Assembly (NCBI RefSeq): GCF_009925085.1
Contig: NZ_JAABNR010000013.1
Span: forward strand, 1-64,000
Direction of reading: 5' to 3'
DNA: 64,000 nt
DNA from: Stagnihabitans tardus
Lineage (GTDB): Bacteria > Pseudomonadota > Alphaproteobacteria > Rhodobacterales > Rhodobacteraceae
The position numbers and the translations under genes are program-made. This document shows positions 23 to 41,283 of the stretch, one piece after another (positions within the stretch are counted from its first letter, which is position 1; the number at the start of each line of letters is the position of its first letter). The notes under the pieces were generated by a model that worked only from the letters and a program-made list of their open reading frames with translations, did not search any database and was not told where the DNA came from.

Positions 23-83
23 CTGGAGGAGCCCGCGGGGCCCCTCCAGACCTCCCGCGGGATATTTGCGCCAAGTTGAAAGG
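23..83 (+). repeat. 3' element: hairpin plus ATATTT-GCGCCAA box (copy 1)
   Basis: A 7-bp inverted repeat (CTGGAGG at 23-29 with CCTCCAG at 43-49) is followed by a short GC stem (CCCGCGGG) running straight into ATATTTGCGCCAAGTTGAAAGG, ending at 83. The same arrangement recurs at least eight more times in this window, mostly just after stop codons. It probably belongs to a plus-strand gene that ends left of the window. The rest of bases 1-197 holds no gene I can support. Confidence 0.7.
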
Positions 84-197
84 AAGGGTCGGTTTTGATC
101 GGTGGATATGTCGCTTTTGAGCCTTAAGCGCCGCATTTGCCGGGCGAAGGGGCGCGGTTTGGGCGCATAACGGCGGCAAACGGATCTGGAGGCTTTC

Positions 198-1742
198 ATG
201 AACGAACAAGTGGCAGGACGGCGGGCGCGCGGCGGTGGCGGGGCCTCGCGGCGGGCGGAACGGACGGCGGTTTCGTTCGAAACCGCGCGGTTCATCGAAC
301 GCAACATCCCGAACTTCGAGATCCTGAACGAAGAAGCGCTGCAGATCATCGAGCACAATGCCGAGACGATCCTGGAAGAGATCGGCGTCAACTTCGTCGA
401 GAACGAAGCGGCGCTGCAGCGCTGGCGCGATGCCGGGGCCGATGTGCGGGGCGAGCGGGTCCATATCCCCCGGGGCCTGGCGCGCAAGCTGTGTTCCACC
501 GCGCCTTCGAGCTTTACCCAGCATGCGCGCAACCCGGCGCGGAATGTGGAAATCGGCGGGCGGAACCTGGTCCTGGCCCCGGTCTATGGCCCTCCCTTCG
601 TGCGCGACATGGAGGGCGGGCGGCGTTATGCCACCATCGCCGACTTCCGGAATTTCGTGAAATTGGCCTATATGTCCAAGTGGCTGCACCATTCGGGCGG
701 CACGGTCTGCGAGCCGACCGATGTGCCGGTGAACAAGCGCCACCTGGACATGCTGCTCGCCCATATGACGCTGTCGGACAAGCCCTTCATGGGCTCGGTC
801 ACCGCGCCCGAGCGGGCGGCGGATTCGGTCGCCATGGCGAAGATCTTGTTTGGGTCGGATTTCGTCGATCAGAACACGGTGATGACCTCGCTCGTGAACA
901 TCAACTCGCCCATGACCTTCGACGGGATCATGATGGGCGCCTTGGAGACCTATGCGGCGGCCAACCAGGCCTCGATCGTCTCGCCCTTCATCGTGGGCGG
1001 GGCCATGGCGCCGGTGACGGTGGGCGGCACGCTGACCCAGGTGCTGGCGGAAGTGCTGGCGGGCGTTTCGTATTCCCAGCTGGTGCGGGCGGGCTCGCCG
1101 GTCATCGCCGGGGCCTTCGTGACCTCGATCGACATGAACTCGGGCGCGCCGACCTTCGGGACGCCGGAAGCCAGCCACATCACCTATGGCGTGGGGCAAC
1201 TGGTGCGGCGTCTGGGCCTGCCCTACCGCTCGGCGGGGGCCTTCTGCGGGTCGAAGCTGCCCGACGCCCAGGCGGCTTACGAATCGGCGAACAGCCTGAA
1301 CATGGGGCTTTTGTCGGGCGTGAACTTCATGCTCCATGCCTGCGGCTGGCTGGAGGGCGGGCTGGTCTCGTCTTACGAGAAGTTCGTCATGGATGCCGAT
1401 CAGCTCGGCACCCTGCACCACATGGCCAAGGGCATCCTGATGGATGAAAACGGCCAGGGTATGGATGCGATCCGCGAAGTGGGTCCGGGCGGCCATTACC
1501 TCGGCTGCGAACACACCCAGGCCAACTTCAAGACCGCCTTCTGGCGCACCGATCTCCTGGACTACAAGCCCTTCGAGACCTGGGCCGAAGAGGGCTCGCG
1601 CGACACGATGCAGCTGGCCAACGAGCGCTGGAAGAAGATGCTGAACGACTATGTCCAGCCCGAGCTGGATGTCGCCAAGACCGAGGCGCTGGAGGCTTTC
1701 GTGGCCGAGCGCAAGGCTTCGGAGCCTGACGCCTTCATCTAA
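198..1742 (+). CDS. Trimethylamine methyltransferase (MttB) family protein, non-pyrrolysine type
   Basis: A 514-residue cytoplasmic protein that matches the MttB/MtgB superfamily along its length, with the family's N-terminal segment (FEILNEEALQIIEHNAETIL, residues about 42-61) and the conserved GGAMAPVTVGGTLTQ stretch near residue 270. Family members transfer methyl groups from trimethylamine, glycine betaine or related quaternary amines to a corrinoid protein. The frame is open to a TAA stop with no internal TAG, so it is the pyrrolysine-free branch, whose best-studied members use glycine betaine-like substrates. The substrate here cannot be read from sequence. The start is supported by GGAGG at 188-192. 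No corrinoid protein or reactivase gene lies beside it, and a strong terminator follows. Confidence 0.85.
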   Translation: MNEQVAGRRARGGGGASRRAERTAVSFETARFIERNIPNFEILNEEALQIIEHNAETILEEIGVNFVENEAALQRWRDAGADVRGERVHIPRGLARKLCSTAPSSFTQHARNPARNVEIGGRNLVLAPVYGPPFVRDMEGGRRYATIADFRNFVKLAYMSKWLHHSGGTVCEPTDVPVNKRHLDMLLAHMTLSDKPFMGSVTAPERAADSVAMAKILFGSDFVDQNTVMTSLVNINSPMTFDGIMMGALETYAAANQASIVSPFIVGGAMAPVTVGGTLTQVLAEVLAGVSYSQLVRAGSPVIAGAFVTSIDMNSGAPTFGTPEASHITYGVGQLVRRLGLPYRSAGAFCGSKLPDAQAAYESANSLNMGLLSGVNFMLHACGWLEGGLVSSYEKFVMDADQLGTLHHMAKGILMDENGQGMDAIREVGPGGHYLGCEHTQANFKTAFWRTDLLDYKPFETWAEEGSRDTMQLANERWKKMLNDYVQPELDVAKTEALEAFVAERKASEPDAFI

Positions 1743-1762
1743 GCGATGTTTGAAAATGAAAA

Positions 1763-1800
1763 GGCCCGCCGGTTCCCCAAACCGGCGGGCCTTTGCTTTT
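1763..1800 (+). terminator. Rho-independent terminator of the MttB-family gene
   Basis: A perfect 12-bp stem (GGCCCGCCGGTT at 1763-1774, AACCGGCGGGCC at 1780-1791) with a 5-nt loop is followed by TTTGCTTTTT. It begins 20 bp after the methyltransferase stop codon. Confidence 0.9.
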
Positions 1801-1808
1801 TCGAACCC

Positions 1809-1835
1809 GGATTGTCGCGAGGGTGGCGACAATCC
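1809..1835. repeat. Perfect hairpin between convergent genes
   Basis: GGATTGTCGC (1809-1818) and GCGACAATCC (1826-1835) form a 10-bp stem with a 7-nt loop. A third half-copy, GCGACAATC, follows at 1852-1860, where the minus-strand DUF6477 gene ends. It may add termination between the convergent genes, but it has no T-tract of its own. Confidence 0.6.
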
Positions 1836-1858
1836 GATTGTTGTGCGATCTGCGACAA

Positions 1859-2167
1859 TCAGACCAGGCGCAGGTCCGGCGGGTTGCGCGGCAGAAGGCT
1901 GACCTCGGCCATCAGGGCGATCATCACCTCGATATGGCGGGCGACCGAATAGCCGGCATCGCCGCGCTGACGGGTCTCTTCCATGCGCTCTTCCTCGGAC
2001 AAGAGCTTGGGAATCGAGCGGTCGGGCGCCGGTTGCCCGTCGATCAGCCGCTTCAGGTCGCGGTCGCGGCGGTATTCGGCCAGGCCCAGACGGGCGGCGC
2101 GAATCAGCAATTGCGGCCGGCGCAGGTCGGCCAAGAGGGTGCGGAAATCGGTGCGGTTCGCAGACAT
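1859..2167 (-). CDS. DUF6477 family protein
   Basis: A 102-residue basic, helical protein beginning MSANRTDFRTLLADLRRPQL. The LRRP-LLIRAARLGLAEYRR pattern is what I recall for DUF6477, a short Rhodobacterales family of unknown function. I chose the internal ATG at 2167, not the longer frame upstream, because the family motif starts there and a GGAG lies about 9 bp ahead. The longer upstream reading would run into the AT-rich intergenic segment. It is divergent from the DUF6456 gene across about 210 bp of relatively AT-rich DNA that must hold both promoters. I see no signal peptide or membrane segment. Confidence 0.75.
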   Translation of the reverse strand: MSANRTDFRTLLADLRRPQLLIRAARLGLAEYRRDRDLKRLIDGQPAPDRSIPKLLSEEERMEETRQRGDAGYSVARHIEVMIALMAEVSLLPRNPPDLRLV

Positions 2168-2377
2168 GGGCAGCACTCCGTTTCGAATCTGGATACAATC
2201 ACTCTGCCACAACTCAACCTGGCGTTGCGCAACCGCCGTTTCAACCGTGCGATGGTTACCAAGATGTTTAAGATTTCGAAACAATTATAGCGAAAGTCTC
2301 AGATTTTAACTCTTGGGTAACCAATGCCACTCACGGTTGCAGAAGTGCACAAATCGAACATGCGGTTGGAAGGGCCC

Positions 2378-3496
2378 ATGACGGAAATGACCCAGATGCA
2401 AAATCCGAGCCTCCGTCCTGACCTGCCTGCCTGGGTGCCGGGGGCCGTGCGCCTCTACCTGGACCACACCGAACAGGGCCTGTCGTTTCGTGCCATTGCG
2501 CGCCGCGACGGCTGCCATGCCTCGACGGTCCTGCGCCAGGTGCGCCGCTACGAAGGGCGACGCGACGATCCCTTGCTGGATGAGGCGTTGTCGGCCCTGG
2601 TCAGGGCGGATGGAGAAACCCCCTGTTCAGCCATGAAGGAAGACCCCATGTCCGCCCCGATCCGCCACCAGACCCTTGATGACAAGCAAATCGCCCGCGA
2701 GGGCCTGCGCGTCCTGCGCCGCCTGGCCGAACCGGGCTCGGTCCTGGCCGTGGCGCCCGACATGGAAAAGGCTGTGGCCATGCGCGAGTTTCCCGATGGG
2801 CGCAGCGCGCGGACCGGGGTCGTGGACCGTGCCTTCGCCCAGGCCTTCGCGCTGAAGGACTGGATCTCCATCCGCAAGGCGGGGCGGGTGACGAGCTATG
2901 AGCTTTCCGCCGTGGGGCGCATGGCCCTGAAGCGGATGCTGGAGACGGAGGAGGGCACCAAACAGGGCCTGGCCGAGGCGCCCATGGTCTTTGGCCACCA
3001 ACACCGCGAATGGGCCGAGCGCGAGATCGCGACCGAGGAGGGTCCGCGGCGGATGCGGTATAACCTGGCGGAAAGCCCGGTGGCGGTGCTGGGGCGGCGC
3101 CGCGACAAGGATGGCAAGGTCTTCCTGACGCCCGAGCTGGTCGATGCGGCCGAACGCCTGCGCGAGGACTACGAGCTGGCGCAGATGGGCCCCCGCGTCG
3201 CGCAGAACTGGGAGCGCTTCCTGACTGGCTCGGACCGGGGCGGCTTCCGCTCCGATGGCCTGGCCGAGGGGCCCCGCGCGGCACGCGACCGGGTGGCGGC
3301 AGCGCTGCGCGACCTTGGCCCCGGCCTTGGCGATGTGGCTTTGCGGGTCTGCTGCTTCCTCGAAGGCATCGAGGCGGCCGAGCGCCGGATGGGTTGGGCC
3401 GCGCGCTCGGGCAAGATCGTCCTGCGCATCGCGCTGATGCGCCTGCGCCGGCATTACGACGAGACCTATGGCCGCTCGGGCCCGCTGATCGGCTGA
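2378..3496 (+). CDS. DUF6456 domain protein with N-terminal helix-turn-helix
   Basis: A 372-residue protein. Residues about 15-60 contain a helix-turn-helix of the resolvase/Hin-like sort ([20 protein letters not shown], then [17 protein letters not shown]). The C-terminal half, with [20 protein letters not shown] and a final helical bundle ending [14 protein letters not shown], fits DUF6456 as I remember it. A DNA-binding regulatory role is likely, but the target is unknown. Two upstream ATGs are in frame; I prefer the ATG at 2378 because GGAAGG lies 7-12 bp ahead. It is divergent from the DUF6477 gene, and both families are essentially alphaproteobacterial. A repeat-rich convergent gap follows. 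Confidence 0.75.
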
Positions 3497-3500
3497 GGGT

Positions 3501-3564
3501 GAGGCCCCGGGTCAAGCCCGGGGCACCGCAGCACTCCGGCGCCCCGGGCTTGACCCGGGGCCTC
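3501..3564. repeat. Long inverted repeat with CCCGGGTCAAGCCCGGG core
   Basis: Two exact 24-bp inverted arms (3501-3524 and 3541-3564) flank a 16-bp spacer. Each arm is itself nearly palindromic around CCCCGGGTCAAGCCCGGGG. It sits between the convergent DUF6456 and coiled-coil genes. Related sequence occurs at 19941-20023 and three times in 60064-60368. Confidence 0.85.
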
Positions 3565-3615
3565 GGCGGCAGGGACGGGGGGGGGCAAGGACGGGGGGCT
3601 TTGCCCCCGTTTCAC

Positions 3616-4542
3616 TTACTTCGCCGACACCGCCTTTTTCAGCTCGGTGCCCACCTTCTTCAGCTCGGCATCGGCCTCGGTGACGATCTCGGGCAGGCCA
3701 TCGACCAGCTTCAGGATCTTCTTGGCGTCCTTCAAGAGCGCGATCTCTTTCTTGAACTTGTCGCGTTGCGCCTTGGCCTCGGCCAGGAGCTTGCGCATCC
3801 GGGTCACATCGGTGTTGGCTTCCTTCACCAGCTGGGCCGCATTGCGCAGGTCCTCCTTCAGCGCTTCACGGGCCCCGGCGAGGGCCTTGGCCACCTTCTT
3901 GCGCAGCGCCTCGAGCTCGGCCGCGCGGTCCTCGAAAGCCTCGGCGCTGAAGCCCTCCTTGTCGGCCTCCTTCTCGCGCTGCTTTTCCGCCTCGCCCGAG
4001 CCCTTCTCGAGCTCTTTCTCGACCACATGTTTCAGCCAGGCCGGGTATTGCTTGGGAAAGGCCACGAGGAACTTGTCGACTTTGAAGCGGAAGGTCGCGG
4101 CCTCGTGCAGCTCTTTGCGGGTGGCCTCGATCTTGTCCACCATCTTGGCCTTGGGCGCAGGCGCCTTGCCGCCGCTGGACTTCAAGAGCTTGGCCACGGC
4201 ATCCGAAAGCTTTTCGACCGTGTCGCCCAGGACCTCGCATTCCTTGCAAAAGGTGCTCAGCGTCTTGACCTCGGTCGTGATCTCGCGGCAATCGGCGTCC
4301 AGATCAGACTGGGCGGCCACGACGGGCTTGTGGACGGACAGCTCCTTCAGCGTGTCGCCCTTGACCCCCGCCTTGATCGCGCCCTGGATCGCGGCGCGGA
4401 AGGCTTTTTCGTGCTGGTCCAAGAGCTTGTCCCGGGCCGTCACGATGGCAAACAGCTTCTTGGCCTGGGCCAGGCCATAGACTTTGAGCTTCATTTCCAG
4501 CTTCGCCCAGTCGCGGTCGATCTTGCTCCAGTCCTCGGCCAT
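3616..4542 (-). CDS. Coiled-coil protein of unknown function
   Basis: A 308-residue, highly charged (Lys/Glu/Ala-rich) and predicted almost all-helical protein. It has no signal peptide or membrane segment, so it is probably cytoplasmic. Heptad-like patterns dominate residues about 165-290. A single CKECE motif lies near residue 98. I do not recognise a family. The start at 4542 (MAEDWSKID) is chosen because GGAGG lies 7 bp ahead; the upstream ATG at 4554 would include that ribosome-binding site in the coding sequence. It is divergent from lipA, separated by 123 bp. Codon use looks like its neighbours, so nothing suggests recent transfer. Confidence 0.8.
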
Positions 4543-4665
4543 GGTCACCTCCATCCTTGTCGATCATGCATGGCAGCCAGTCACTGCACGGAACACCTTT
4601 TCGTCTCATGGGTCAAAGGCTATGTAACGGGGAATTATCGCGGGCCTTTGGCCGGAGGAGTGGTG

Positions 4666-5613
4666 ATGCGTGACCTGACGAAGCCCGAAGAGCGCCACCC
4701 CGAAAAGGCGCATCGCGCCGACAATCCCCAGCCGAAGAAGCCGTCCTGGATCCGCGTCAAGGCGCCGACCTCGGAGGGCTACAAGCAGACCCGCGACATC
4801 CTGCGCGAGAAAAAGCTGGTCACGGTCTGCGAGGAAGCGGGCTGCCCGAACGTCGGCGAGTGCTGGAGCCAGGGTCACGCCACGATGATGATCATGGGCG
4901 AGATCTGCACCCGCGGCTGCACCTTCTGCAACATCGCGACCGGCAAGCCCTCGTCCCTGGACGCTTTCGAGCCCGGCCGCGTTGCCCATGCCGTGGCCGA
5001 ACTGGGGCTGAAGCATGTCGTTGTGACCTCTGTTGACCGCGATGACCTGGAGGACGGCGGGGCCGATCACTTCGCCCAGACGATCCGGGCGATCCGTCAC
5101 CGGTCTCCCAACACCACGATCGAGGTCCTGACCCCCGATTTCCTGAAATGCCCGCCCTCGGCGCTGGAGGCGGTCGTGGCCGCCCGTCCGGATGTCTTCA
5201 ATCACAACCTGGAAACCGTCCCCGGCCTTTACGCCGAGGTCCGCCCCGGCGCGCGCTATTTCCACTCCTTGCGGCTCTTGCAGCGGGTGAAGGAGTTGGA
5301 CCCCACGATTTTCACCAAATCCGGCATCATGGTGGGCCTGGGCGAGGATGCGCCTGCGGTGAAACAGGTCATGGACGACATGCGCTCGGCCGATGTCGAT
5401 TTCCTGACCGTGGGCCAGTATTTGCAACCGACGCCGAAACACCACGCGGTGGCGCGCTTTGTCACGCCCGAGGAGTTCAAATCCTATGAGACGGCGGCCT
5501 GGGGCAAGGGCTTCCTGATGGTCTCCGCCACGCCGCTCACGCGGTCAAGCTACCACGCGGGCGACGACTTCGCCCGGCTCAGGGCCAACCGGATGGCGGC
5601 GCTCGGGCGGTAA
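4666..5613 (+). CDS. lipA: Lipoyl synthase
   Basis: A 315-residue radical-SAM enzyme that inserts two sulfurs into protein-bound octanoyl chains to make the lipoyl cofactor of 2-oxoacid dehydrogenases and glycine cleavage. Both iron-sulfur motifs are present: the auxiliary-cluster cysteines C55, C60 and C66 ([12 protein letters not shown]) and the radical-SAM triad C81, C85 and C88 (CTRGCTFC). The C-terminal RSSYHAGD carries the serine ligand of the auxiliary cluster. The start at 4666 follows a strong GGAGGAG; the frame is open much further upstream, but that part is antisense to the coiled-coil gene. Length is normal. No lipB is adjacent. Confidence 0.97.
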
Positions 5614-5618
5614 GGGGT

Positions 5619-5718
5619 GGCGGGTTGAAACCCGCCCTGGACCAGCGCAACCCATGAAGACGAGGCGGAACGTTTTTGGCCGCCCGATGGATCGGGTAGG
5701 GCGGGTGTCAACCCGCCC
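5619..5718. repeat. Two GGCGGGTT-type palindromes after lipA
   Basis: The palindrome GGCGGGTTGAAACCCGCC lies at 5619-5636, just after the lipA stop. A related palindrome (GGGCGGGTGTCAACCCGCCC) lies at about 5699-5718, just before the end of the convergent GST gene. The first is repeated exactly at 61058-61075, over the ynjF stop codon. Confidence 0.8.
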
Positions 5719-5727
5719 CTCTGCTGG

Positions 5728-7214: not shown

Positions 7215-7289
7215 GGAAATCTCCTGTTTGCGCCAGCCTGACATGGGGCGCGGCTTCGGGCAAGCCATGCTCACGCGGGCGTGACGGCC

Positions 7290-7448
7290 TCAGGGCCCGG
7301 GCCTGCCGTTGACCCGCAGCGCCTCGGGCCAGAACCGGATCGTCTCGATCCCGACCAGCAAAAGGCAAAGGCCCACAGTCACCGGGACCACGGCCACGCG
7401 CCCGGGCGGGCGGCAGAGCCATGTGACCATGCGCCGAAAGACCGTCAT
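7290..7448 (-). CDS. Small single-pass membrane protein
   Basis: A 52-residue reading frame whose ATG overlaps the hpt stop codon (ATGA), so it is probably translated by coupling from hpt. Residues about 18-38 ([20 protein letters not shown]) form one hydrophobic helix preceded by arginines, giving an expected N-in orientation. The C-terminal tail is short and ends VNGRPGP. I recognise no family. The evidence is the overlap, the clear membrane helix and the absence of any competing gene on either strand. Confidence 0.5.
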
Positions 7449-7984: not shown

Positions 7985-8100
7985 CTGGGCTCTTTCCTTT
8001 GCACCGGGGGAAATTGCGCCCCCGCTTGCGGGAGGGCCTTGATTTCCGTCTGGGCACAAGACAAATCCCGCCTGACCCCGCCTTTGCAAGGGAAAAGAAC

Positions 8101-8541
8101 ATGCGCCACGCCGAGGAGAAGTTTCTCCCCCACACGCCTGCCCAGATGTTCGACCTGGTGGCCGATGTGGCGCAATATCCGCAGTTCCTGCCCTGGACCG
8201 CCGCCGCCCGCATCCGCTCGCAAAAGCCAGTCCCGGGCGGCGAGGTGATGGAGGCCGATCTCGTGATCTCCTTCAAGCTCTTCCGCGAGAAATTCGGCTC
8301 ACGCGTCACGCTCCTGCGCGAGGAGGGCCGCATCCTGACCGAGTATATCGACGGCCCCTTCCGGCATCTGAAATCCGAATGGCGTTTTGCCGAGGCTCCG
8401 GGCGGCTGCAAGGTCGCCTTCGAGGTGGATTTCGAGTTCCGCAACGCGATCCTGGCGGGCGTCATCGGCCTGGTCTTCAACGAGGCCATGACCCGCGTCG
8501 TCCGCGCCTTCGAGGCGCGCGCCAAGGCGCTTTACGGCTGA
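8101..8541 (+). CDS. COQ10/RatA-like START-domain protein
   Basis: A 146-residue single START-like (polyketide cyclase/dehydrase) domain: [20 protein letters not shown], then YPQFLPW, and the C-terminal helix [16 protein letters not shown]. In alphaproteobacteria these proteins are coenzyme Q-binding COQ10 homologues that help deliver ubiquinone to respiratory complexes. Some relatives are annotated as RatA toxins on weak grounds; there is no partner antitoxin here. It is probably cytoplasmic or membrane-associated and has no signal peptide. The ATG at 8101 is the family start; the open frame upstream lacks homology. It is divergent from hpt. Confidence 0.88.
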
Positions 8542-8740
8542 GGGGAGCGCGGGCGGAAAGCTGCGCCTCCGGCGGGAGGATTTCAGCCAATTTGAAAGGG
8601 CAGGGGGCGCCGATTGCGAGGCGACTGGGGTTGTCCTGGTCCGGCTGAGGGGAACGCTTGGGGGAAAGCTGCGCCTCCGGCGGGGATACTTGGGCCAAAT
8701 TGAAAGGGCAGGGCGCGGAACCCTTGCGACTGGGGGCCAA
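8536..8740 (+). repeat. Imperfect tandem duplication carrying two ATATTT-type boxes
   Basis: About 100 bp starting at GGCTGAGGGGA, including the upstream gene's own stop codon at 8539-8541, is repeated from 8643 at a spacing of 107 bp and roughly three-quarters identity. Each copy contains GCGCCTCCGGCGGG followed by a degenerate box and TTGAAAGGG (ending 8600 and 8708). Nothing else in 8542-8887 looks functional. Confidence 0.7.
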
Positions 8741-8887
8741 TCCGGCAAGCTGATCGCGTCGATCTCCCGGCGTCCTGGTTTCATTGGTCCAGAAATATCC
8801 CGGGGTGAGGCCGCAGGCCGAGGGGCAGCGCCCCTCTCTTCCCCGGGCGCCGCAAGCGCGCGGATTTGGGAAGCGGGCTCTCGTTTC

Positions 8888-8914
8888 GCTGCGTAGCCCG
8901 GGGTATACCCCGGG
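8888..8914. repeat. Palindromic repeat shared with the 60-kb tandem array
   Basis: A 27-bp sequence centred on the palindrome CCCGGGGTATACCCCGGG lies three bases beyond the anmK stop codon. The same 27 bases occur in both units of the tandem repeat, at 60152-60178 and 60295-60321. Confidence 0.85.
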
Positions 8915-8916
8915 GC

Positions 8917-10014
8917 CTAGTCCGGCCAGCTGATCTGCCCCCCGCCGACCGAGGCGCGGACCCCGGTGGTCATGGGACCCGAGGTCGGCAGGCCGCGCCG
9001 CACGCGGGCCGCCAGGTAGGCGAAGGCCTGGGCCTCGAGCATGTCGCCGTTCAGCCCGGTGGCGTCGATATCCTCGACGCCGGGAAGCTTTGCCCGGAGC
9101 GCCGCCATCAGGGCGGCGTTCAGGCGGCCCCCGCCCGCCACCAGAAGCCGCGAGATCGGGGCGGGGAAATGCTCGGCCCCGCGGGCCACGGCCTCGGCGG
9201 CGGCCTGGGTTAGGGTGGCGGCCGCATCGGCATCGGAGAGATGGGCCACCCAGGGCAATAGGTCGTGAAAGGCGTTGCGGTCCAGGGACTTGGGCGGCAC
9301 CTTGAAGAAATAGGGCGAGGCGAGGAACCGGGCGATCACCTCTGCGTCGGGCCTGCCCGAGAGGGCCAGCGCCCCGCCCTCGTCCAGGGCCTGACCGCGC
9401 CGCTCCTGCATCAGGTCATTGACCGGCGCATTGGCAGGCCCGGTGTCGAAGGCCAGGAGCGCGCCGGGCGCCTCGGGGGAAGTCAGGCGCGGATCGACCC
9501 AGGTCAGGTTGCCCACGCCCCCGAGGTTCAGGAAGGCCAGGGGTTCGGTCGCGCCCAGTCGGCGGCCAAGCGCATGGTGGAAAAACGGCACCAGGGGCGC
9601 GCCCTGGCCCCCCAGCGCCACATCTGCGCTGCGGAAATCCCAGACCACCGGCAGGCCGAGCGCACTGGCCAGGACCTGGCCATCCCCGGCCTGGTGCGTC
9701 CCCCGCCCGCCGGGATCATGGGCCAGTGTCTGGCCATGAAAGCCCACCAGCGCCACGTCCGCGAACCGGCTGGCCACCTCGACATGGGCGGCCTCGACCA
9801 CCTCGGCCGCCGCGCGGACCGGGGGATCGCCCGGCCAGGCCCCAAAGCCCGCCGCGATGGTCGCCCGCTCGGCCTCGGCATAGGGGCGAAAGGCATGGGG
9901 GCCGAAATCCAGCACCCTGATGCCGTCGGTCAGCACCATGGCCGCATCGACCCCGTCCAGCGAGGTCCCCGACATCATCCCCAGAACCCAGAGCGGTTCG
10001 TCCTTTTCCTTCAC
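8917..10014 (-). CDS. anmK: Anhydro-N-acetylmuramic acid kinase
   Basis: A peptidoglycan-recycling enzyme that opens the 1,6-anhydro ring of anhydroMurNAc while phosphorylating it to MurNAc-6-phosphate. The ATP-binding signature [14 protein letters not shown] and the motifs [11 protein letters not shown] and [10 protein letters not shown] are intact. Length is about 365 residues. I place the start at the GTG at 10014 because the upstream ATG at 10062 overlaps the divergent tyrS start; the ATG at 9981 is also possible. It is divergent from tyrS, an arrangement I recall from other Rhodobacterales. Confidence 0.9.
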
Positions 10015-11311: not shown

Positions 11312-11342
11312 CCTGTCGAGAGAGACCTGCGCAAAGACATGG

Positions 11343-11405: not shown

Positions 11406-11470
11406 CCGGGGAGGGTTTCACACCCTCCCCGGACCCCTCCCGTGGGAGTATTTGAGCCAAGTTGAAAGGG
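11406..11470 (+). repeat. 3' element: TTCAC-loop hairpin plus TATTTGAGCCAA box
   Basis: An 11-bp perfect stem (CCGGGGAGGGT at 11406-11416, its complement at 11422-11432) has the loop TTCAC. It is followed by ACCCCTCCCGTGGGAG, then TATTTGAGCCAAGTTGAAAGGG. The loop and order are the same as in the copy at 23689-23747. Confidence 0.8.
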
Positions 11471-23522: not shown

Positions 23523-23657
23523 CATGCGCTCCGTCTGACGGCAGGCCCCGGGGGATCGCACCCCCGGATCCAAGTGGGATCTTTGGGAAAAGGTGAGAGG
23601 GAATTAGGCCGGGGGCGCGGAAAGCGCAAGGGCGGGTGGAGGGCCCCACAGCGGGAA

Positions 23658-23747
23658 GCGGGGGACTGCCGTCCCCCGCACCCCCTGCCTCGGGGGCTTT
23701 CACAGCCCCCGAGACCCCCGTGGGATATTTGGGCCAATGTGAAAGGG
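23658..23747 (+). repeat. 3' element: two hairpins plus ATATTTGGGCCAA box
   Basis: The hairpin GCGGGGGAC / GTCCCCCGC (23658-23679) is followed by CTCGGGGGCT-TTCAC-AGCCCCCGAG (23689-23713), then ACCCCCGTGGGATATTTGGG and CCAATGTGAAAGGG to 23747. The TTCAC loop matches the copy at 11406. Here the element lies between two minus-strand genes but points the other way. Confidence 0.8.
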
Positions 23748-34146: not shown

Positions 34147-34248
34147 GGCGGGGGTTTTGACAGGCGCGCGGGCGGGGTCAAGCAAAAAGAGCGGGGCGCC
34201 CGGCGAGGGGCGCCCCTTTGGGCTTTCATGGGCAGAGTTGCGCCAAGG

Positions 34249-36351
34249 TCACTTCTGCAAAAGCGGCGTGATGATGCGCACCGAGACGCGGCGGTTGGCG
34301 CGCTCATCCCCCGCGGTCGGGATCAGGAGCTCGCTTTCGCCATAGCCCTGGACGACCATGTTTTCCGGCGGCACGCCGAAATACTGGGTCAGGGCCTTGG
34401 CGACGGTCTCGGCGCGGCGGTCCGACAGGGTCAGGTTCGAGGCGGCAGAGCCCACGGCATCGGTATGGCCCTCGATCAGGAAGACCTCGCCGGGGTTTTG
34501 CGCGATCATCTCGCCGATGAACTTGCCCAGACCATTCAGCGACCTGGCCTCGGTCGCATCCAGCGCGGCAGAGCCCGACTTGAAGGTGATCTCCTTGACA
34601 TCCACCGTCGGCGCCAGGTGGCGAACCTCGGGGATGGAGCGGATCTGGCGCAGCGAGAACTTGGCGCCGTAATCCTCGACCTGGGCGGCCAGGAGGGCGG
34701 CTTGCAGGGCGGCATCGGGATTGGCCACGTCGATGCGCTGGGGCTTGGGCTTGGGCAACTGGCTGACCACGATGGGCTGTTCCGGCCGCAGGTCGTCGAT
34801 CAGCACCGTGGCACGGCCCTTGGTGTCATAGGCCACGCGTTGCAGCACCCGGCCCGAGGCATCGCGGATCGTGGCGATCTGGCTGCCGTCCTTGCGGGCG
34901 ACGATGGTGCGGGTCGAGCCGTCCTGGAAGGTCTGGGTCGTGACTTTCGATCCCGGCTCGCGCAGAAGCGCATTGTCGTCCTTGTAGATCTGGTAAGAGC
35001 CATCGGGCTGGCGCACGACGACGCGGTCCCCGGTGTTCTGGACGACCTGCTTGACGCCTTCGGTATTCCCGCCGTTCTGCGCGCCATGGATGATCGTGCC
35101 GATGGCCAGGGCGCCCAGGGCGACGAGGCCGGCCTTTTCCAGGTTCGAAAGGCCGGATTTCTTGCCCGGAGCCACCTGGACGGGGGCAGCGGCGAATTCC
35201 TGGTCGGCCGAGCGGGTCTCGGTCTCCGTCACGGTCTCGGTTGTGACAGTGGCGGTTTCCGGGACGGGCTGGTCAGCCGGGGGCGTGGTCGGGTCGATGG
35301 CGGCGGCGGTGGCCGCCTCGGTGACCGGGGGAGCGGCTGCGGGCGCGGTGCCCTCGGCGGCGGGCTCGGAGGTCGCAGCGGTCACGGGGGCATCGAGGAC
35401 GGCGCCGAGGGCTTCGGCCGCCTGTTCCTCGACGACGGGGGCCTCGACCGGTTGCAGGTTCGGATCGGCCAGCGCGGCGGCCGCGGCTTCTTCCTGCGCC
35501 TTCTGCGCGGCCTCGATGGCGGCCTGGTCCTGGGCGACCTGCTCGGTCACCTGCTCTTCGGTGAGGGTGACGGTCTCGGGCTCGGCCAGGGGAGCGTCGG
35601 GGGTGGTCTCTTCGGCGACCGGCTCTTCCGTTGCAGGCTCTTCCGTTGCGGTTTCGTCGGCCGCAGGCTCTTCGGCGGCAGGCTCTTCCGTTGCGGTTTC
35701 ATCGGTCGCAGGCTCTTCGGCGGCAGGCTCTTCGGCGACGGTGTCTTCGGCGGCAGGCTCTGCCGACTGATCCGTGGCGCCCTCTTCCGTGGCGGGCTCC
35801 GCCGACTGATCCTCGGTCGCGGTGTCCTCGGTCGCCTGCTCTTCGGCGATGGGCTCTTCGGGAGCGGCTTCCTCGGGGGCAGCTTCCTCGGCGGTCATTT
35901 CCTCGGGAGCAACCTCTTCGGGGGCGACTTCCTCGGGAGCAGTTTCTTCGGGGGCAACCTCTTCGGGGGCAACCTCTTCGGGAGCGACCTCCTCGGGAGC
36001 GACCTCTTCGGGGGCGGCTTCTTCGGGAGCGACCTCCTCAGCGGCGGGCTCCTCTGCCACGGGCTCCTCGGCCACGGGTTCTTCCGCGACGGGCTCTTCG
36101 GCCACCGGTTCCTCAACCACGGGTTCCTCGACCGGGACGCCATAGGTCGCCTCGGCGGCGGCCTGGCACTCCTCGGCCCCCGCGATCACGCAGGCCGTGC
36201 CATCGGGGCAGGCGGTCTGGTCGTCTGGCAGGCAGATCACCTGCTGGCCGCCGACATCGGCCATGGGCAGGTCTTGCGCCTGAACGGCAAAGGGCGGGAC
36301 GATATAGAGTGTCAGCGACAGGATCGCCGTGGAATTGATGAGAACCTTCAT
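34249..36351 (-). CDS. Large OmpA-family protein with acidic low-complexity repeats
   Basis: A 700-residue envelope protein. Order: a Sec signal peptide (1-26, ending VQAQ); a short Cys-bearing region (about 36-65); an extremely acidic repeat region at about 73-260 built from EEPVA and PEEVA units; a Pro/Ala/Thr-rich linker; a hydrophobic stretch (AGLVALGALAIGTIIHG, about 408-424); and a C-terminal OmpA/MotB peptidoglycan-binding domain (about 590-695, with IEGHTDAVGSAASN and RRAETVAKAL). It probably anchors to the cell wall with a long flexible spacer. The ATG at 36351 follows AAAGG. Confidence 0.88.
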   Translation of the reverse strand: MKVLINSTAILSLTLYIVPPFAVQAQDLPMADVGGQQVICLPDDQTACPDGTACVIAGAEECQAAAEATYGVPVEEPVVEEPVAEEPVAEEPVAEEPVAEEPAAEEVAPEEAAPEEVAPEEVAPEEVAPEEVAPEETAPEEVAPEEVAPEEMTAEEAAPEEAAPEEPIAEEQATEDTATEDQSAEPATEEGATDQSAEPAAEDTVAEEPAAEEPATDETATEEPAAEEPAADETATEEPATEEPVAEETTPDAPLAEPETVTLTEEQVTEQVAQDQAAIEAAQKAQEEAAAAALADPNLQPVEAPVVEEQAAEALGAVLDAPVTAATSEPAAEGTAPAAAPPVTEAATAAAIDPTTPPADQPVPETATVTTETVTETETRSADQEFAAAPVQVAPGKKSGLSNLEKAGLVALGALAIGTIIHGAQNGGNTEGVKQVVQNTGDRVVVRQPDGSYQIYKDDNALLREPGSKVTTQTFQDGSTRTIVARKDGSQIATIRDASGRVLQRVAYDTKGRATVLIDDLRPEQPIVVSQLPKPKPQRIDVANPDAALQAALLAAQVEDYGAKFSLRQIRSIPEVRHLAPTVDVKEITFKSGSAALDATEARSLNGLGKFIGEMIAQNPGEVFLIEGHTDAVGSAASNLTLSDRRAETVAKALTQYFGVPPENMVVQGYGESELLIPTAGDERANRRVSVRIITPLLQK

Positions 36352-36523
36352 GCCTGGCCTTTCGATCTTCGACAGGGGCGTCGACGGGGGCGTTTGCGGG
36401 GGCCTCGACGCCCCTCTGGTCATTCCTTACCCCGAATGGCCCCGGATATGCGATAGCAAGCGCGTGTCAGGTGGCAACAAGGTGCCGGTTGCCCTTGGGC
36501 GCGCCAGGGGCTAGCACTTCTCC

Positions 36524-37519
36524 ATGCGCGCCACCTTGATCACAACGCTCAAGAACGAGGCTTCGTTCCTTCTGGAATGGGTGGCCCATCACCGGGCCCT
36601 GGGCTTCACCGACCTGGTGATCTTCACCAATGATTGCGAGGACGGGACGGATGCCATGGCCGAGCGGCTCCAGGCCCTGGGGCTGGCGCGGCATCTGCCC
36701 AATCCGGGCCCCTGGCCCGAGGGGCCGCAATGGGCGGCCTTGAAGCGGGCCGAGAAGCTGCCCGAGGTCACCGGGGCCGATTGGGCGCTGGTCGCCGATG
36801 TCGACGAATTCGTGAACATCCATGCGGGCGAGGGGCGGCTTGCCGATCTTGTCGCCGCCGTCCCTGGGGCGGATGCCGTGGCGCTGACCTGGCGGATGTT
36901 CGGCAATGCGGGGATTGCTTCCCATGCGCCGGGGCTGGTGACGCGGACCTTCCTGCGGGCCGCGCCTGCGACCCTCGCCTGGCCCTGGCGGGCCCAGATG
37001 ATCAAGACGCTTTTTCGCCCCCAGGCCTTCGGCAAGCTGGGGGTGCATCGGCCGAAACAGCCCAAGGGCGAGCCGCGCTGGTTCGACGGCTCGGGCCGCG
37101 CGGTGGACCTGGGCGGGCGGCTCTTCAGCGACTACCGGCAGGACAATTACCGGCTGGTGCAGATGAACCATTATGCGCTCGGCTCGGCGGAGGGCTTTGT
37201 CGTGAAATGCGACCGGGGGCGGGCCAACCGCGAAGCCGGGGCCTTCGACATGGGCTATTGGGTCGAGCGCAACCTGAACCAGGTCGAGGACCGCTCGATC
37301 CTGCGCCATGACATCGCGGGGCCCTTGGCAGCGCTTTTGGCTGATGCGGAACTGGCGCGGCTCCAGGCCGCGGCCGAGGCCTGGCGCCAGGCGCGAATCG
37401 CCACGCTTCTGGCGCAGGAGGACTGGCGGCAGTTCTTCGGACGGCTTCTGATGGCGGGGCCCTCGCGGCTGCCCTCTCTGCCAGAGGTTGCGCTGATCCA
37501 GAGGCGCCGCAACCCCTGA
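36524..37519 (+). CDS. Glycosyltransferase family 2/92-like protein
   Basis: A 331-residue cytoplasmic protein. The N-terminal TLKNEASFLLEWVAHHRALG is the nucleotide-sugar-binding start seen in GT2/GT92-type enzymes of surface polysaccharide synthesis, and DVDEF (about residues 90-94) is the metal-binding DxD motif. The central LTWRMFGNAG and the histidine-bearing VQMNHYALGS near residue 215 also fit. Acceptor and sugar are unknown. It stands alone, without a polysaccharide cluster. It is divergent from the OmpA-like gene. Confidence 0.82.
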   Translation: MRATLITTLKNEASFLLEWVAHHRALGFTDLVIFTNDCEDGTDAMAERLQALGLARHLPNPGPWPEGPQWAALKRAEKLPEVTGADWALVADVDEFVNIHAGEGRLADLVAAVPGADAVALTWRMFGNAGIASHAPGLVTRTFLRAAPATLAWPWRAQMIKTLFRPQAFGKLGVHRPKQPKGEPRWFDGSGRAVDLGGRLFSDYRQDNYRLVQMNHYALGSAEGFVVKCDRGRANREAGAFDMGYWVERNLNQVEDRSILRHDIAGPLAALLADAELARLQAAAEAWRQARIATLLAQEDWRQFFGRLLMAGPSRLPSLPEVALIQRRRNP

Positions 37520-37716
37520 GTGCGGACGAAAAGCGGCCCATCGGCCCCTTGCGCCCTGGGCGAAAAGCGGCCCAGGGCAACAATCGCCCCGGATTGTCCC
37601 TTTTGGCGCCTTAATTTTAACCCTCTTTCGCTTGATCCCTTGGGCACCGGGGCGATAATGGCCCCAAAGGTCTGGCCTCGGCCGAGGCCTGCTTTGCGCA
37701 CCACGGATGGCCCTTG

Positions 37717-38703
37717 ATGGATGACCTCGACGACGACCTGCTCGATGCCTCCGCCGCCGCCTCGCCCGAGGCCTGGGCCGAGCGCATGGCCGAGATCGGC
37801 AGGTCGGGCGGCTGGTTCCGCAGCCTCGCGCATGACCACCAGGCGCTGTTTCTCGACAATGGCCGCAGCCTTTTGGTGACCTTCGACACCCATCGCGCGG
37901 CCTTTGAACGTCCGCGCAAGCTGCCCGTGGGCATGGACCTGGCCGATGAATGCGACTGGTCGCATCTCTGCGTCCTGGCGCGGAAACATCCCTGGTTCCG
38001 CTCGGAAGGGGTCTATGCCTTTTTCGACAGCCTGATCGACGAGGGCTTCTTCGAGGGCTTCGACCGTGTCCTGTTTTACGGCGCGGGGCCCTTGGGCTAT
38101 GCGGCGGCCGCCTATTCCGTGGCCTCTCCGGGGGCAGAGGTTCTGCTTCTGAACCCGATCGCCAGCCAGTCCCCCGCCGTGGCAGGTTGGGACGACCGCC
38201 ACCGCGAGGCCAAGCGGATGGACTTTACCTCGCGCTATGGCTTTGCCCCCGACATGGTCGATGGGGCGGCTGCGGTCACCGTGATCTCGGACCCCTGCCA
38301 GAAGATCGACGCTATGCATGCGGCGCTGTTCCTCGGGCCCCATGTCCGGCATTTCGCGGCCCGGCGCGGGGGAGGCGACCTCGAGGCGCAGTTCAGCCGC
38401 ATGGGGAACCTGAACCACCTCTTGGCCGCCGCGATGGAGCGCGGCCTTGGCCTGCAACGCTTCGCCCAGCTCTGGCGGCGGCGGCGCAGCGACGGGACCT
38501 ATCTGCGCCACCTGCAACTGGCTTGCGCCACCCATCCGGCGCGCGAAATCGCCGTCTGCCGCAATGTCGTCGCGCGGCTGGACCAGAAGCGCTTCCGCAG
38601 GCGCCTGGCCGAGCTGGTCCCGGGCGAGGTGCCCGCGGCTCCCTCGGCCCTGGCCCAGGCCGCGGCGCAAGAGATCGCCGCCACGGGCCCCGAGGCGAGC
38701 TGA
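37717..38703 (+). CDS. Conserved protein of unknown function, Rossmann-like segment
   Basis: A 328-residue soluble protein. The central stretch VLFYGAGPLGYAAAAYSVAS followed by EVLLLNPIASQSP looks like a dinucleotide-type or alpha/beta-hydrolase strand-loop-helix. The C-terminus is basic and helical (RRRRSDGTYLRHLQL). Homologues that I recall from Rhodobacterales carry the label phosphoadenosine phosphosulfate reductase, but I see no PAPS-reductase motif and do not adopt it. The start is the ATG at 37717, next to a weak Shine-Dalgarno-like CGGATGG. Confidence 0.75.
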   Translation: MDDLDDDLLDASAAASPEAWAERMAEIGRSGGWFRSLAHDHQALFLDNGRSLLVTFDTHRAAFERPRKLPVGMDLADECDWSHLCVLARKHPWFRSEGVYAFFDSLIDEGFFEGFDRVLFYGAGPLGYAAAAYSVASPGAEVLLLNPIASQSPAVAGWDDRHREAKRMDFTSRYGFAPDMVDGAAAVTVISDPCQKIDAMHAALFLGPHVRHFAARRGGGDLEAQFSRMGNLNHLLAAAMERGLGLQRFAQLWRRRRSDGTYLRHLQLACATHPAREIAVCRNVVARLDQKRFRRRLAELVPGEVPAAPSALAQAAAQEIAATGPEAS

Positions 38704-38706
38704 GCC

Positions 38707-39090
38707 CTATTCCCCCTCGGCCATGGCGCGCAGCTCTTCGGCGCGTTGGCGGGTCAGGCGTTCAAGACAGGCGAGCCCCACCAGGGGCGCAATCGAGCCG
38801 TCCTTGTAGAAGAAGACCTCGTTTTCGCAGACGGCATCGCGATAGGGCAGCCAGGCGCGTTGGGCTTTGCGCAGGGCCTCTTCGGCGCCGCGCTGGTCCT
38901 TGGGCAGGTCGGCATCCCAGGCCTTCATCGCCGCCATGGCCAGCTTGTAGGTCGCGTTCAGGTCCTCGTCCGCCGCCTGATAAGCCTGGCCCGCGCATTC
39001 GGTCATCTCGACCTGGTCGACAGGGTCGGCGCAATTGGCCAGGGCGGGCAGGGGAAGGATCAGGGCAAGGGCCAGAAGGGGGGCGCGCAT
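38707..39090 (-). CDS. LprI/DUF1311-family periplasmic protein
   Basis: A 127-residue exported protein with a Sec signal peptide (MRAPLLALALILPLPALA, cleavage before NCAD). It has four cysteines that could form two disulfides (NCADP, TECAG, VCENE, ACLER) and the family pattern NATYKLAMAAMK, then LRKAQRAWLPYRDAVC. Relatives such as LprI of mycobacteria inhibit lysozyme, but most members have no known function. It is convergent with the preceding gene after a three-base gap and divergent from pyrC. Confidence 0.88.
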   Translation of the reverse strand: MRAPLLALALILPLPALANCADPVDQVEMTECAGQAYQAADEDLNATYKLAMAAMKAWDADLPKDQRGAEEALRKAQRAWLPYRDAVCENEVFFYKDGSIAPLVGLACLERLTRQRAEELRAMAEGE

Positions 39091-39191
39091 CGGGGTCTCC
39101 GGGGTTTTGCCGCAGGGTGGCGGGGCGCGGGGGGCCTGTCCAGCGGGAAATGGGCTGGAATTGAGCGGGCTTTTCGGCTAGGGCGGCGGGC

Positions 39192-40217
39192 ATGACCCAG
39201 ATCACGATCCGCCGCCCCGACGACATGCACCTGCACCTGCGCGATGGCGCGATGCTGCAGGCCGTGGCCCCCGAAAGCGCCCGCGACTTCGCCCGGGCCA
39301 TCATCATGCCAAACCTCGTGCCGCCCGTGGTGACGGGCGCCCAGGCGGCCGCCTATCGCGACCGCATCCTGGCCGCCGCGCCAGGCTTTACGCCCCTGAT
39401 GACGCTCTATCTGACCGAGACGACCGACCCCGCCGATGTGGCGGCTGCGGCGGTCTCGGGTCTGGTGAAGGCGGTCAAGCTCTATCCGGCCGGCGCCACG
39501 ACCAATTCCCATGGCGGGGTGCGGGATTTCGACAAGGTCATGCCGGTGCTGGAGAAGATGGCCGAGATCGGCCTTCCCCTCTGCACGCATGGCGAGGTCA
39601 CGACGCCCGAGGTCGATATCTTCGACCGCGAGGCGGTCTTCATCGACACGGTGCTCGACCCGCTGCGCCGCCGGATCCCGGAGCTTCGCGTGGTGATGGA
39701 GCATATCACGACCGAAGAGGGCGTGGCCTACGCCGGGCAGGGCGGCAACCTCGCCGCCACGATCACCACCCATCACCTGATCATCAACCGCAACCATATC
39801 CTGGTGGGCGGCATCAAGCCGCATTACTACTGCCTGCCGGTCGCCAAGCGCGAGAAGCACCGCCTGGCCCTGCGCCGCGCGGCCACCAGCGGAAGCCCCG
39901 CCTATTTCCTCGGCACCGACAGCGCCCCCCATGTCGATGCGCTGAAGGAACACGCCTGCGGCTGCGCGGGCTGCTTCACGGCGACCAACACCATGCCCCT
40001 CCTCGCCCATGTCTTCGAGGAGGAAGGCGCGCTCGACCGGCTCGAGGCCTTTACCTCCCTGAACGGCGCCGCCTTCTACGGCCTGGCCCCCAACGAGGCG
40101 ACCCTGACCCTGGTCAAGGAGCCCGCCCCCGTGACCTTCCCCGCCAAGATCGAAACGGGCGCCGGCCCGGTCACCGTCTTCGACCCCGGCTTCCCGCTCC
40201 ACTGGCGCTGCGCCTGA
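39192..40217 (+). CDS. pyrC: Dihydroorotase
   Basis: A 341-residue class II dihydroorotase, third step of pyrimidine synthesis (carbamoyl-aspartate to dihydroorotate). The metal histidines in DMHLHLRDG (residues 11-19), the carboxylated lysine in [13 protein letters not shown] near residue 98, further histidines in THGEV and MEHITT, and the catalytic Asp in GTDSAPH are all present. Length matches E. coli PyrC (348). pyrE follows on the same strand after a 70-bp gap holding an inverted copy of the ATATTT box. Confidence 0.97.
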
Positions 40218-40249
40218 TTTCACCTTTGCACAAATATCCCCGCCGGAGG
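40218..40249 (-). repeat. ATATTT box, reverse orientation, inside the pyrC-pyrE gap
   Basis: Read on the minus strand this is CCTCCGGCGGGGATATTTGT followed by GCAAAGGTGAAA. It is a diverged copy of the dispersed box, with no larger hairpin in front. It points against transcription of pyrC and pyrE. Confidence 0.6.
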
Positions 40250-40287
40250 CCCCGCTGTCCTCCCGCGTGCCCCTCGCAGGAGTTGCC

Positions 40288-40968
40288 ATGATCCCCTCGT
40301 CCTTCCCCCCCCGTGAGGAAATCGCCCGCCTGACCGCCCGCGCGCTCCTGGAAATCAAGGCGGTGCATTTCAACGCCGAGACGCCCTTTACCCTGGCCTC
40401 GGGCCTGCCCTCCCCCACCTATATCGACTGCCGCAAGCTGATCTCTTACCCCCGCATCCGCTCTGTCCTGATGGATTTCCTGACCGTGACGGTCCTGCGC
40501 GATGCCGGCCTCGAGGCCTTCGACAATATCGCGGGCGGTGAGACGGCGGGCATCCCCTTCGCGGCCCTCGTGGCCGAGCGCATGGCGCTGCCCATGACCT
40601 ATGTCCGCAAAAAGCCCAAGGGCTATGGCCGCAACGCCCGCATCGAGGGCGCGATGACCGAGGGCCAGCGCGTCCTCCTGGTCGAGGACCTGACGACGGA
40701 TGGCGGCTCCAAGCTCTCCTTCGTCGATGCGATCCGCGAGACGGGGGCCACCTGCGCCCATACGGCGGTGATCTTCTACTACGGCATCTTCCCCGAGACG
40801 ACCCAGCGCCTGGCCGATCACGGCGTGGCTTTGCACCACCTCTGCACCTGGTGGGATGTCCTGGCCGAGGCAAGGGCGCAGGGCGCTTTCGATGCCGCGA
40901 CCCTGGCGGAGGTGGAAAGCTTCCTCCAGGACCCGCGCGCCTGGCAGGCAGCGCGCACGAAGGGTTAA
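40288..40968 (+). CDS. pyrE: Orotate phosphoribosyltransferase
   Basis: A 226-residue enzyme that joins orotate to PRPP, giving OMP. The PRPP loop [14 protein letters not shown] lies at about residues 131-144, and the catalytic lysine region [17 protein letters not shown] precedes it. The start at 40288 has GCAGGAG six bases upstream. It is the partner of pyrC. A hairpin plus ATATTT element and a T-rich terminator follow the stop. Confidence 0.96.
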
Positions 40969-40994
40969 GGCTGGGGGAGCCTCGGCCCCCCCCC

Positions 40995-41065
40995 GCGTCC
41001 ATCGGTGCTCGAACCGATGGCGCATCGCTGGACGCACCCCGAGGATATTTGGGCCAGTATGAAAG
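40995..41065 (+). repeat. 3' element after pyrE: hairpin plus ATATTTGGGCCAG box
   Basis: GCGTCCA (40995-41001) pairs with TGGACGC (41029-41035), with an inner stem ATCGGT / ACCGAT. ACCCCGAGGATATTTGGGCC and AGTATGAAAG follow to 41065. Confidence 0.75.
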
Positions 41066-41068
41066 ACC

Positions 41069-41106
41069 AAGGGGCGCAGCCGGGAATGGCGCGCCCCTTT
41101 GTTTTT
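41069..41106 (+). terminator. Rho-independent terminator after pyrE
   Basis: AAGGGGCGC (41069-41077) pairs with GCGCCCCTT (41091-41099) across a 13-nt loop, followed by TGTTTTTG. It comes after the ATATTT element. Confidence 0.8.
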
Positions 41107-41146
41107 GCCTGGCGTGATTTTCGCTTCTGCCAGCCCTCTTCCCGGG

Positions 41147-41283
41147 CCTTCACACTGGCCGAAATACTCCCTTCCCCTTGTCAATCTCGGCCGCTTTCAA
41201 TTTGGCCCAAATACTCACGGGGTTTCTCAAGGGGAGCGTGCTCCCCTTGAGGCAGGGGGTGCGGGGGGCTTGCGGCCCCCCGC
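41147..41283 (-). repeat. 3' region of valS: two hairpins and two ATATTT-type boxes
   Basis: Reading away from valS on the minus strand: a hairpin with 9-bp arms (41261-41283) two bases after the stop; a perfect 11-bp hairpin TCAAGGGGAGC / GCTCCCCTTGA (41227-41250); a box ACCCCGTGAGTATTTGGGCC plus AAATTGAAAG (41194-41223); and a second box GGGAGTATTTCGGCCAGTGT (41147-41171). Together with the pyrE side they fill the 317-bp convergent gap, which contains no gene. Confidence 0.8.

Follow-up and report, generated by a model that had tools for sequence, protein, structure and literature searches.

The 64,000-nucleotide stretch of Stagnihabitans tardus DNA analysed here (contig NZ_JAABNR010000013.1, positions 1 to 64,000; hereafter the window) carries a dispersed element at or near the ends of genes that include tyrS, pyrC, pyrE, and valS. 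The element is composed of a GC-rich hairpin, a short TATTT tract, and a 15-base box, GGGCCAA-NN-TGAAAG, directly downstream of the tract. A first-pass annotation had reported nine copies of the box in the window, all of which were recovered, and had read them as a special element of gene 3′ ends, a reading that our results support in part. A weight matrix of 36 columns, trained on 464 kb of the same genome (G000, 4.59 Mb; the window plus positions 1–400000 of contig C1), detected 92 copies in these 464 kb, compared with 0 in the reversed, uncomplemented sequence. Eleven of the 92 fall inside the window, namely the nine and two more (elements 4 and 6 in Table 1). The matrix information is concentrated in GG-(A)-TATTT, G-(GG)-CCAA, and TGAAAG; TATTT and TGAAAG are conserved in this genome, and the two bases preceding TGAAAG are variable. 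Extrapolation from 92 copies per 464 kb suggests about 900 copies in the genome.

Pattern searches gave the same picture. In the window, a pattern allowing up to 3 mismatches had 38 matches against 19.8 expected (the largest of 100 shuffles was 30), which by itself is moderately above chance. Over the whole genome, 187 matches (4 in the control) were obtained with a strict pattern when up to 2 mismatches were allowed, and 226 (0 in the control) with another that allowed up to 1 mismatch. A second box class, NTGAAAAGATGAA, which carries TGAAAAGATGAA, had 86 genome-wide matches with up to 2 mismatches, a few of them overlapping the first class, and 0 in the control. None of 4227 Rfam models matched the window at the gathering score, and none matched positions 41000–41290 at E ≤1.

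The copies show a strong bias towards gene ends. With genes called by our own simple codon-usage caller (395 genes, 89% coding), 90 of the 92 copies are intergenic, and the two in-gene copies are weak (scores 15 and 18). Among gaps of at least 40 bp, a copy was present in 27/53 convergent, 24/125 tandem, and 2/65 divergent gaps (divergent versus the rest, Fisher p = 3e-6), and 16 of the 27 occupied convergent gaps hold facing copies. These results agree with the first-pass description of a dispersed 3′-end element. Its finer claim, that six of eight copies follow a stop codon and point with the gene, was also borne out (8566, 8674, 11434, 41036, 41147, and 41194); the exceptions, 23715 and 40218 (pyrC-pyrE), are each opposed to both flanking genes. 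A conventional terminator, with a hairpin and a T run, was found in 19/53 convergent gaps, in 8 of these alongside the element.

Hairpins, which the first-pass annotation had described, precede the tract far more often than at random positions. A stem of at least 6 pairs was found in 80/92 copies and in 403/1000 random positions, for which the stem limits were slightly narrower, and a stem of at least 8 pairs in 66/92 copies and 162/1000 random positions. The larger hairpins that had been described at five copies were found at all five, with a TTCAC loop at 11434 and 23715 as reported; at 41036, however, the stem ends 25 nt before TATTT and not a few bases before it. The TTTCAC loop occurs in 11/92 copies. 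Another 15/92 belong to the GCCTCCGGCGG type, in which the third run described below is not evident. A pseudoknot between the box and the TTTCAC loop (TTTCA is complementary to TGAAA) was considered and set aside, since the loop is present in only 11/92 copies.

The hairpin of the TTTCAC copies is followed by a third run, as in the example GGGGAGG-TTTCACA-CCTCCCC-GGA-CCCCTCC-GTGGGA-TATTT. The last C-rich run mirrors the second and is the parallel complement of the purine arm, an arrangement that is required by an intrastrand triplex, is not required by Watson-Crick pairing, and is made by no copying mechanism. The topology also fits a triplex: the hairpin base is where the second run stops and where, past a linker of about 3 bases, the third run begins its course parallel to the purine arm. 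In a set of 212 unique elements, which includes coding false positives, 60 purine runs contain an internal A. A 6-base parallel match was found for 25/60 of these runs against 10.2 in shuffled sequences (maximum 19 of 1000), and a 6-base antiparallel match for 9/60 against 9.5.

A family-like subset of 116 elements gave 100 unique arm/region pairs, 47 of them with A in the purine arm. For these 47, the mean parallel matched length was 5.96 against 4.63 in shuffled sequences (maximum 5.06 of 300) when G was matched to C and A to A or T, and 3.87 against 3.08 when A was matched to T only. The control rule, A to C or G, gave 4.64 against 4.57, and the antiparallel A-to-T rule 2.79 against 2.85. 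When only one copy was kept for each of 20 distinct purine runs, the parallel value was 4.05 against 3.38 (maximum 3.85 of 2000) and the antiparallel value 3.35 against 3.21. Furthermore, the longest G run and the longest C run are equal in length in 59/100 pairs, compared with 27 expected. These values show that, for runs with an internal A, the third run matches the purine arm in triplex register. In an unanchored alignment, the third-run base facing the internal A was T in 22 cases, A in 7, G in 8, and C in 3; these counts do not decide between an RNA-level and a template-strand triplex. An RNA-level triplex needs protonated C, and the complementary DNA strand could form a neutral triplex of the G.G-C, A.A-T type. 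The runs are ordered R-Y-Y on the gene-sense strand and R-R-Y on the other (R, purine; Y, pyrimidine), and do not have the Y-R-R order of the TM-ECO elements.

As a separate observation, in some elements from Pseudorhodobacter, Gemmobacter, Paracoccus, and this genome (loci L161, L165, L184, L214, and L033), the linker between the second and third runs folds into a small hairpin of its own, and the third run keeps a full or nearly full match to the purine arm.

Orthologous sites were located by protein searches; tblastx on sampled stretches of five genus members gave 15 matches, too small a number for this purpose. After mfd, the three closest genomes (G000, G534, and G539) carry an element of the TTTCAC type at +43 to +45 from the stop codon. 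The triples of runs are GGGAGGG/CCCTCCC/CCCTCCC in G000, GGAGGGG/CCCCTCC/CCTCCCC in G534, and GGGGAGG/CCTCCCC/CCCCTCC in G539; they differ among the genomes and each is internally consistent, which amounts to a three-way change. After tyrS, the element in the same three genomes is again of the TTTCAC type, but its stems differ; in G531, GGGGAGG..CCCCTCC occurs with a different loop and in the reverse direction. The CACG type follows serS in all three genomes, and the GCCTCCGGCGG type follows hemB in G000 and G534 (hemB was not found in G539). After valS, a same-direction copy was detected in G539 and, by the criteria used, none in G534. Under a permissive search that includes false positives, a same-direction copy was found in 3/22 genomes after mfd, 7/25 after serS, and 4/23 after hemB, with the three genomes counted; outside these three, such copies are uncommon at the sites compared. 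These sequence comparisons indicate that close relatives inherit the element type locus by locus and that turnover sets in at greater distances.

In a sample of the order (292 genomes, all labelled as one family and including that of the window), a moderately strict pattern was matched in 90 genomes, and in 20 of these at least 10 times. In a class-wide sample of 241 genomes, 20 match, including that of the window, and the other 19 have only 1–2 matches, as in controls. High copy number is confined to the window's own family in the samples searched; the pattern is near this genome's own box, and low counts elsewhere do not mean that related elements are absent (G147 is an example). All 16/16 genomes of the genus match. 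Named matches number at least 106; among the 80 listed are Paracoccus, Rhodobacter, Gemmobacter, Tabrizicola, Pseudorhodobacter, Cypionkella, Phaeovulum, Roseinatronobacter, and Natronohydrobacter, as well as assemblies named just Rhodobacteraceae, Paracoccaceae, Proteobacteria, or Pseudomonadota.

The box takes different forms in other genomes. Elements were selected there by hairpin and tract with the box unused, and coding false positives remain in the selection; when the motif was instead re-estimated freely, it drifted towards coding patterns, and that result was not used. The forms obtained include GGGTCAGTATGAAAG (G534), TTGAACAGATGAA (G530), GTGCACGTATGAAAG (G536), GGGCAGAGTGAAAG (G094), CGACCAATGGAAG (G119), TTGGCGAAAAGAAA (G147), GTGGACAGAAAATG (G175), and GTGCCAAGATGAAAG (G255), and few or no clear elements were found in the stretches sampled from G010, G079, G012, G533, and G177. 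Box identity was 0.483 within and 0.397 between genomes, and the largest difference in 500 label shuffles was 0.032; this comparison covered the 13 genomes that had 3 or more elements each (136/139 elements, false positives kept). Several forms coexist within a single genome, which weakens the notion of one box dialect per genome; this notion proved too strong. The parallel third run, the lineage forms of the box, and the second box class all go beyond the first-pass annotation.

A similarity search of plasmids and phages with one element returned nothing, and a 31-base query gave weak plasmid matches in 24 records, with a best E of 0.2 among those listed. The exact box pattern occurs in 15 viral stretches, of which 4 are GC-rich and have a hairpin; the 11 without a hairpin look like chance matches. 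The four GC-rich viral contigs with hairpin and box (L122, L123, L126, and L135) may be either true phage sequence or host flank. Two other repeats were seen during these comparisons. G099 carries a different dispersed repeat, GAATTCGAACTTATTTCGTTCGAATTCTGATACTT..., at several places (L061–L065 and L304–L307; after valS, serS, and hemB), and the palindrome GATTTTTCGCAGAAAAATC or a near variant occurs in several genomes (L033 near 46 and 182; stretches of G536 and G062), sometimes repeated nearby.

Table 1. Elements detected in the window by the weight matrix and their component parts.
Element	Position	Strand	Parts and context
1	23–82	+	Hairpin about 23–49; third run CCTCCC 51–56; TATTT 63–67; box GCGCCAAGTTGAAAG 68–82
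2	8568–8603	+	GCCTCCGGCGG type; 27 nt past the stop of gene 8101–8541
3	8676–8711	+	Hairpin part resembles that of element 2
4	8773–8808	-	Box variant CTGGACCAATGAAAC; 3′ of 8917–10014 (anhydro-N-acetylmuramic acid kinase); absent from the first-pass annotation
5	11406–11468	+	TTTCAC-loop type, after tyrS; purine arm CCGGGGAGGG 11406–11415; arm CCCTCCCCGG 11423–11432; parallel third run CCCCTCCC 11434–11441; TATTT 11449–11453; box 11454–11468
6	23569–23604	+	Opposed to both neighbouring genes; absent from the first-pass annotation
7	23689–23745	+	TTTCAC-loop type; opposed to both neighbouring genes; arms 23689–23698 and 23704–23713; third run CCCCC 23715–23719; TATTT 23726–23730; box 23731–23745
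8	40212–40247	-	70-bp pyrC-pyrE gap (genes both +), opposed to both; motif overlaps the pyrC end by a few bases
9	40999–41065	+	Motif start 67 nt past pyrE; hairpin 40999–41020; TATTT 41046–41050; box 41051–41065; a GC hairpin with a T tract comes next
10	41142–41177	-	Second, weaker copy 3′ of valS, score 18; own hairpin not found
11	41189–41251	-	CACG-loop type, after valS; hairpin 41226–41251; TATTT 41209–41213; box 41194–41208

We favour the reading that the element is a Rhodobacterales type of intrinsic terminator, in which a triplex-capable hairpin is followed by a short A/U tract and then by the conserved box, and we put its probability at roughly 0.55. The nascent RNA would fold into a G-rich/C-rich hairpin (R1-loop-Y1), and the C-rich third run (Y2), after a linker of about 3 nt, could occupy the hairpin's major groove as the third strand of a triplex, parallel to R1; alternatively, the template DNA strand may form a mirror-image G.G-C triplex. 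With this folding, ordered structure would reach the edge of the G(N)GG-AUAUUU tract, at which we infer a pause of RNA polymerase and release of the transcript. At that point the box GGGCCAA-NN-TGAAAG would still be in the DNA ahead of the enzyme, spanning about +2 to +17 relative to the RNA 3′ end; it may retain the polymerase there or be recognised by a factor that drifts in specificity from one lineage to another. The first-pass annotation had remarked that this conserved downstream half is not explained by a simple intrinsic terminator, and indeed such a terminator does not need it. It is a tentative and rather doubtful extension that the element represents a new architecture, in which an encoded triple helix of the nascent RNA or the template strand, and not a longer stem, extracts the transcript while a co-evolving factor on the downstream box holds the polymerase.

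Several results weigh against termination by a triplex-capable hairpin. The orientation bias that the first-pass annotation had described does not hold element by element in tandem gaps, where 18 elements point with the genes and 15 against (p = 0.73), although a same-direction copy is included in 17 of the 24 occupied tandem gaps (the other 7 hold opposed copies only). The 15/33 opposed elements are unexplained by a plain terminator and are a real difficulty, although they could stop read-through or antisense transcripts. A conventional terminator lies within 330 nt at 26/56 gene ends with a same-direction element. A T-tract hairpin is present within 120 nt downstream on the same strand in 20/92 copies (opposite strand, 2/92; upstream, 9/92), and a second hairpin of at least 8 bp follows the box directly in 14/92, compared with 1.6 in shuffled sequences (maximum 4 of 20) and 12/184 segments farther downstream. 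Some RNA may therefore end at these second hairpins or terminators instead. The median distance from the end of the large stem to TATTT is 12 nt (100 unique family-like pairs), too great for a canonical terminator stem acting alone, and the tail, TATTT, is short and mixed. In regards to the third run, the antiparallel value for all 100 pairs (4.71) also exceeds the shuffled value (4.24, maximum 4.43), because G and C runs are directionless, so that only runs with an internal A discriminate. A small parallel excess was found in 110 other GC-rich hairpins (3.58 against 3.30, maximum 3.52), and the shuffles ignore kinship among copies. At neutral pH, moreover, consecutive C+.G-C triples give only weak structures. 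Finally, an E. coli intrastrand triplex element had no terminator activity in earlier work cited in the passages of PMC4666352 on this subject.

The second hairpins have features of their own. In about 15–20% of copies, a second hairpin starts within a few bases, often as AAAGGGCGCC...GGCGCCCTTT (C1 copies; in the window at about 41070–41105). Its arms are often GGCGCC, and in some convergent gaps one hairpin is common to two facing copies.

The gap between the large stem and TATTT can be filled either by a small stem formed by the third run with the G(N)GG(G) that precedes the tract or by the triplex, and the two would compete because the same third run serves both; we prefer a terminator whose triplex-capable structure closes behind the polymerase at the AUAUUU pause while the box is in the downstream duplex. 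If the small stem were the working part, the copies would be ordinary intrinsic terminators, in which a short C-run/G-run stem acts before AUAUUU, the third run is its 5′ arm, and the box is retained by descent or by polymerase preference. A stem of at least 3 bp abuts the tract in 45/100 pairs (shuffled mean 19, maximum 32), and the predicted RNA fold of the three mfd elements places part of the third run inside the small stem, both of which favour this reading. The remaining 55/100 have no 3-bp stem, however, and the single T or A of the third run tracks the position of the A in the purine arm, which a small stem does not need; in the G534 mfd element, the fold prediction leaves this T without a partner. 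The downstream box is also left unexplained, and we consider ordinary terminators possible but unlikely. The main rival, given that the box is closely followed by another hairpin or a T-tract terminator in about one fifth of copies, is RNA processing: an endonuclease such as RNase E would cut the single-stranded AUAUUU region, the triplex-capable hairpin would give a stable mRNA 3′ end, and termination would occur farther on. RNase E prefers RN/WUU, which AUAUUU fits. By the criteria used, however, 72/92 copies have no second terminator, and RNase E does not need a fixed 15-base box, so that a processing or protection site appears unlikely.

The box itself could be the site of a DNA-binding protein that acts as a polymerase roadblock or chromosome organiser, with the lineage forms tracking the protein. 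The greater likeness of boxes within genomes, the visibly different forms in G000, G530, G534, G536, G094, G119, G147, G175, and G255, and the fixed polarity and spacing to the hairpin are all in keeping with such a protein, and opposed copies would be natural for a roadblock. On the other hand, several box forms occur within one genome, and facing copies share no common form, their box likeness (0.702, 21 pairs) being that of random partners (0.702); a palindrome between facing copies was rejected on the same comparison. We judge this explanation improbable as well. Far less credible is a REP-like mobile repeat spread by a RAYT (Y1) transposase, which we reject despite the high copy number, the palindromic and intergenic character, and the similar neighbours at 8568 and 8676: Y1_Tnp (PF01797) had 0 matches in G000 at E ≤0.001 and was found in 5/14 control genomes, the stems vary among copies, and the closest relatives carry the same type at orthologous sites. 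DNA uptake signals are also common inside genes, where this element is nearly absent (2/92), and the box lies outside the hairpin. A DNA uptake or GTA-related signal co-located with terminators is accordingly a very remote prospect, although such signals sit in terminators in Neisseria and Pasteurellaceae, as described in the relevant part of PMC1852404, and those of Neisseriaceae have dialects, as described in that of PMC3630211.

If the triplex forms, transcription at many gene ends in Rhodobacter, Paracoccus, and their relatives, an order of ecological and biotechnological importance, would involve a triple helix of nucleic acid, and intrastrand triplex repeats would gain a testable function. 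The conserved downstream box would give access to the question of how termination is influenced by DNA that the polymerase has yet to enter. Predictors based on a stem and a T run may miss these sites. Rho-independent terminators were predicted by program in R. sphaeroides (PMC8625941) and Paracoccus denitrificans (PMC5107571), and a PNPase study of R. sphaeroides (PMC7866481), which published genome-wide RNA 3′ ends (deposited reads are mentioned in PMC8625941), reported that the 15 nt preceding PNPase-dependent 3′ ends contain no motif, a result that does not bear on this element; the passages of these three papers on transcript ends make no mention of such an element. Word searching of the open-licence PMC literature, a scope outside which most subscription papers lie, found no description of it among the matches listed.

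Compared with known systems, the element shares with Rho-independent terminators a GC-rich hairpin, a short T-rich tract, a position 3′ of genes, and enrichment in convergent gaps. It differs from them in having TATTT and not a T run, a large stem at a median of 12 nt before the tract, a parallel third run, and a 15-base box past the tract. REP/BIME sequences are likewise high-copy extragenic palindromes, whereas the present element has no Y1 transposase in the genome, its stems vary and covary, and only the tract and box are constant. The uptake-signal terminators of Neisseria and Pasteurellaceae also place a high-copy conserved word at gene ends; according to the account of these terminators in PMC1852404, the word forms the hairpin arms, whereas the present box is outside the hairpin and nearly absent from genes. 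The intrastrand triplex elements PIT, BoxC, and TM-ECO, in the description given in PMC4666352, are alike in having three triplex-capable runs on one strand and many dispersed copies, and such repeats are known in bacteria. The common E. coli order in that description is Y-R-R (CCCTCNCCC..GGGNGAGGG..GGGNGAGGG), whereas the present element is R-Y-Y in the gene sense, lies at gene ends, and is followed by TATTT and the box.

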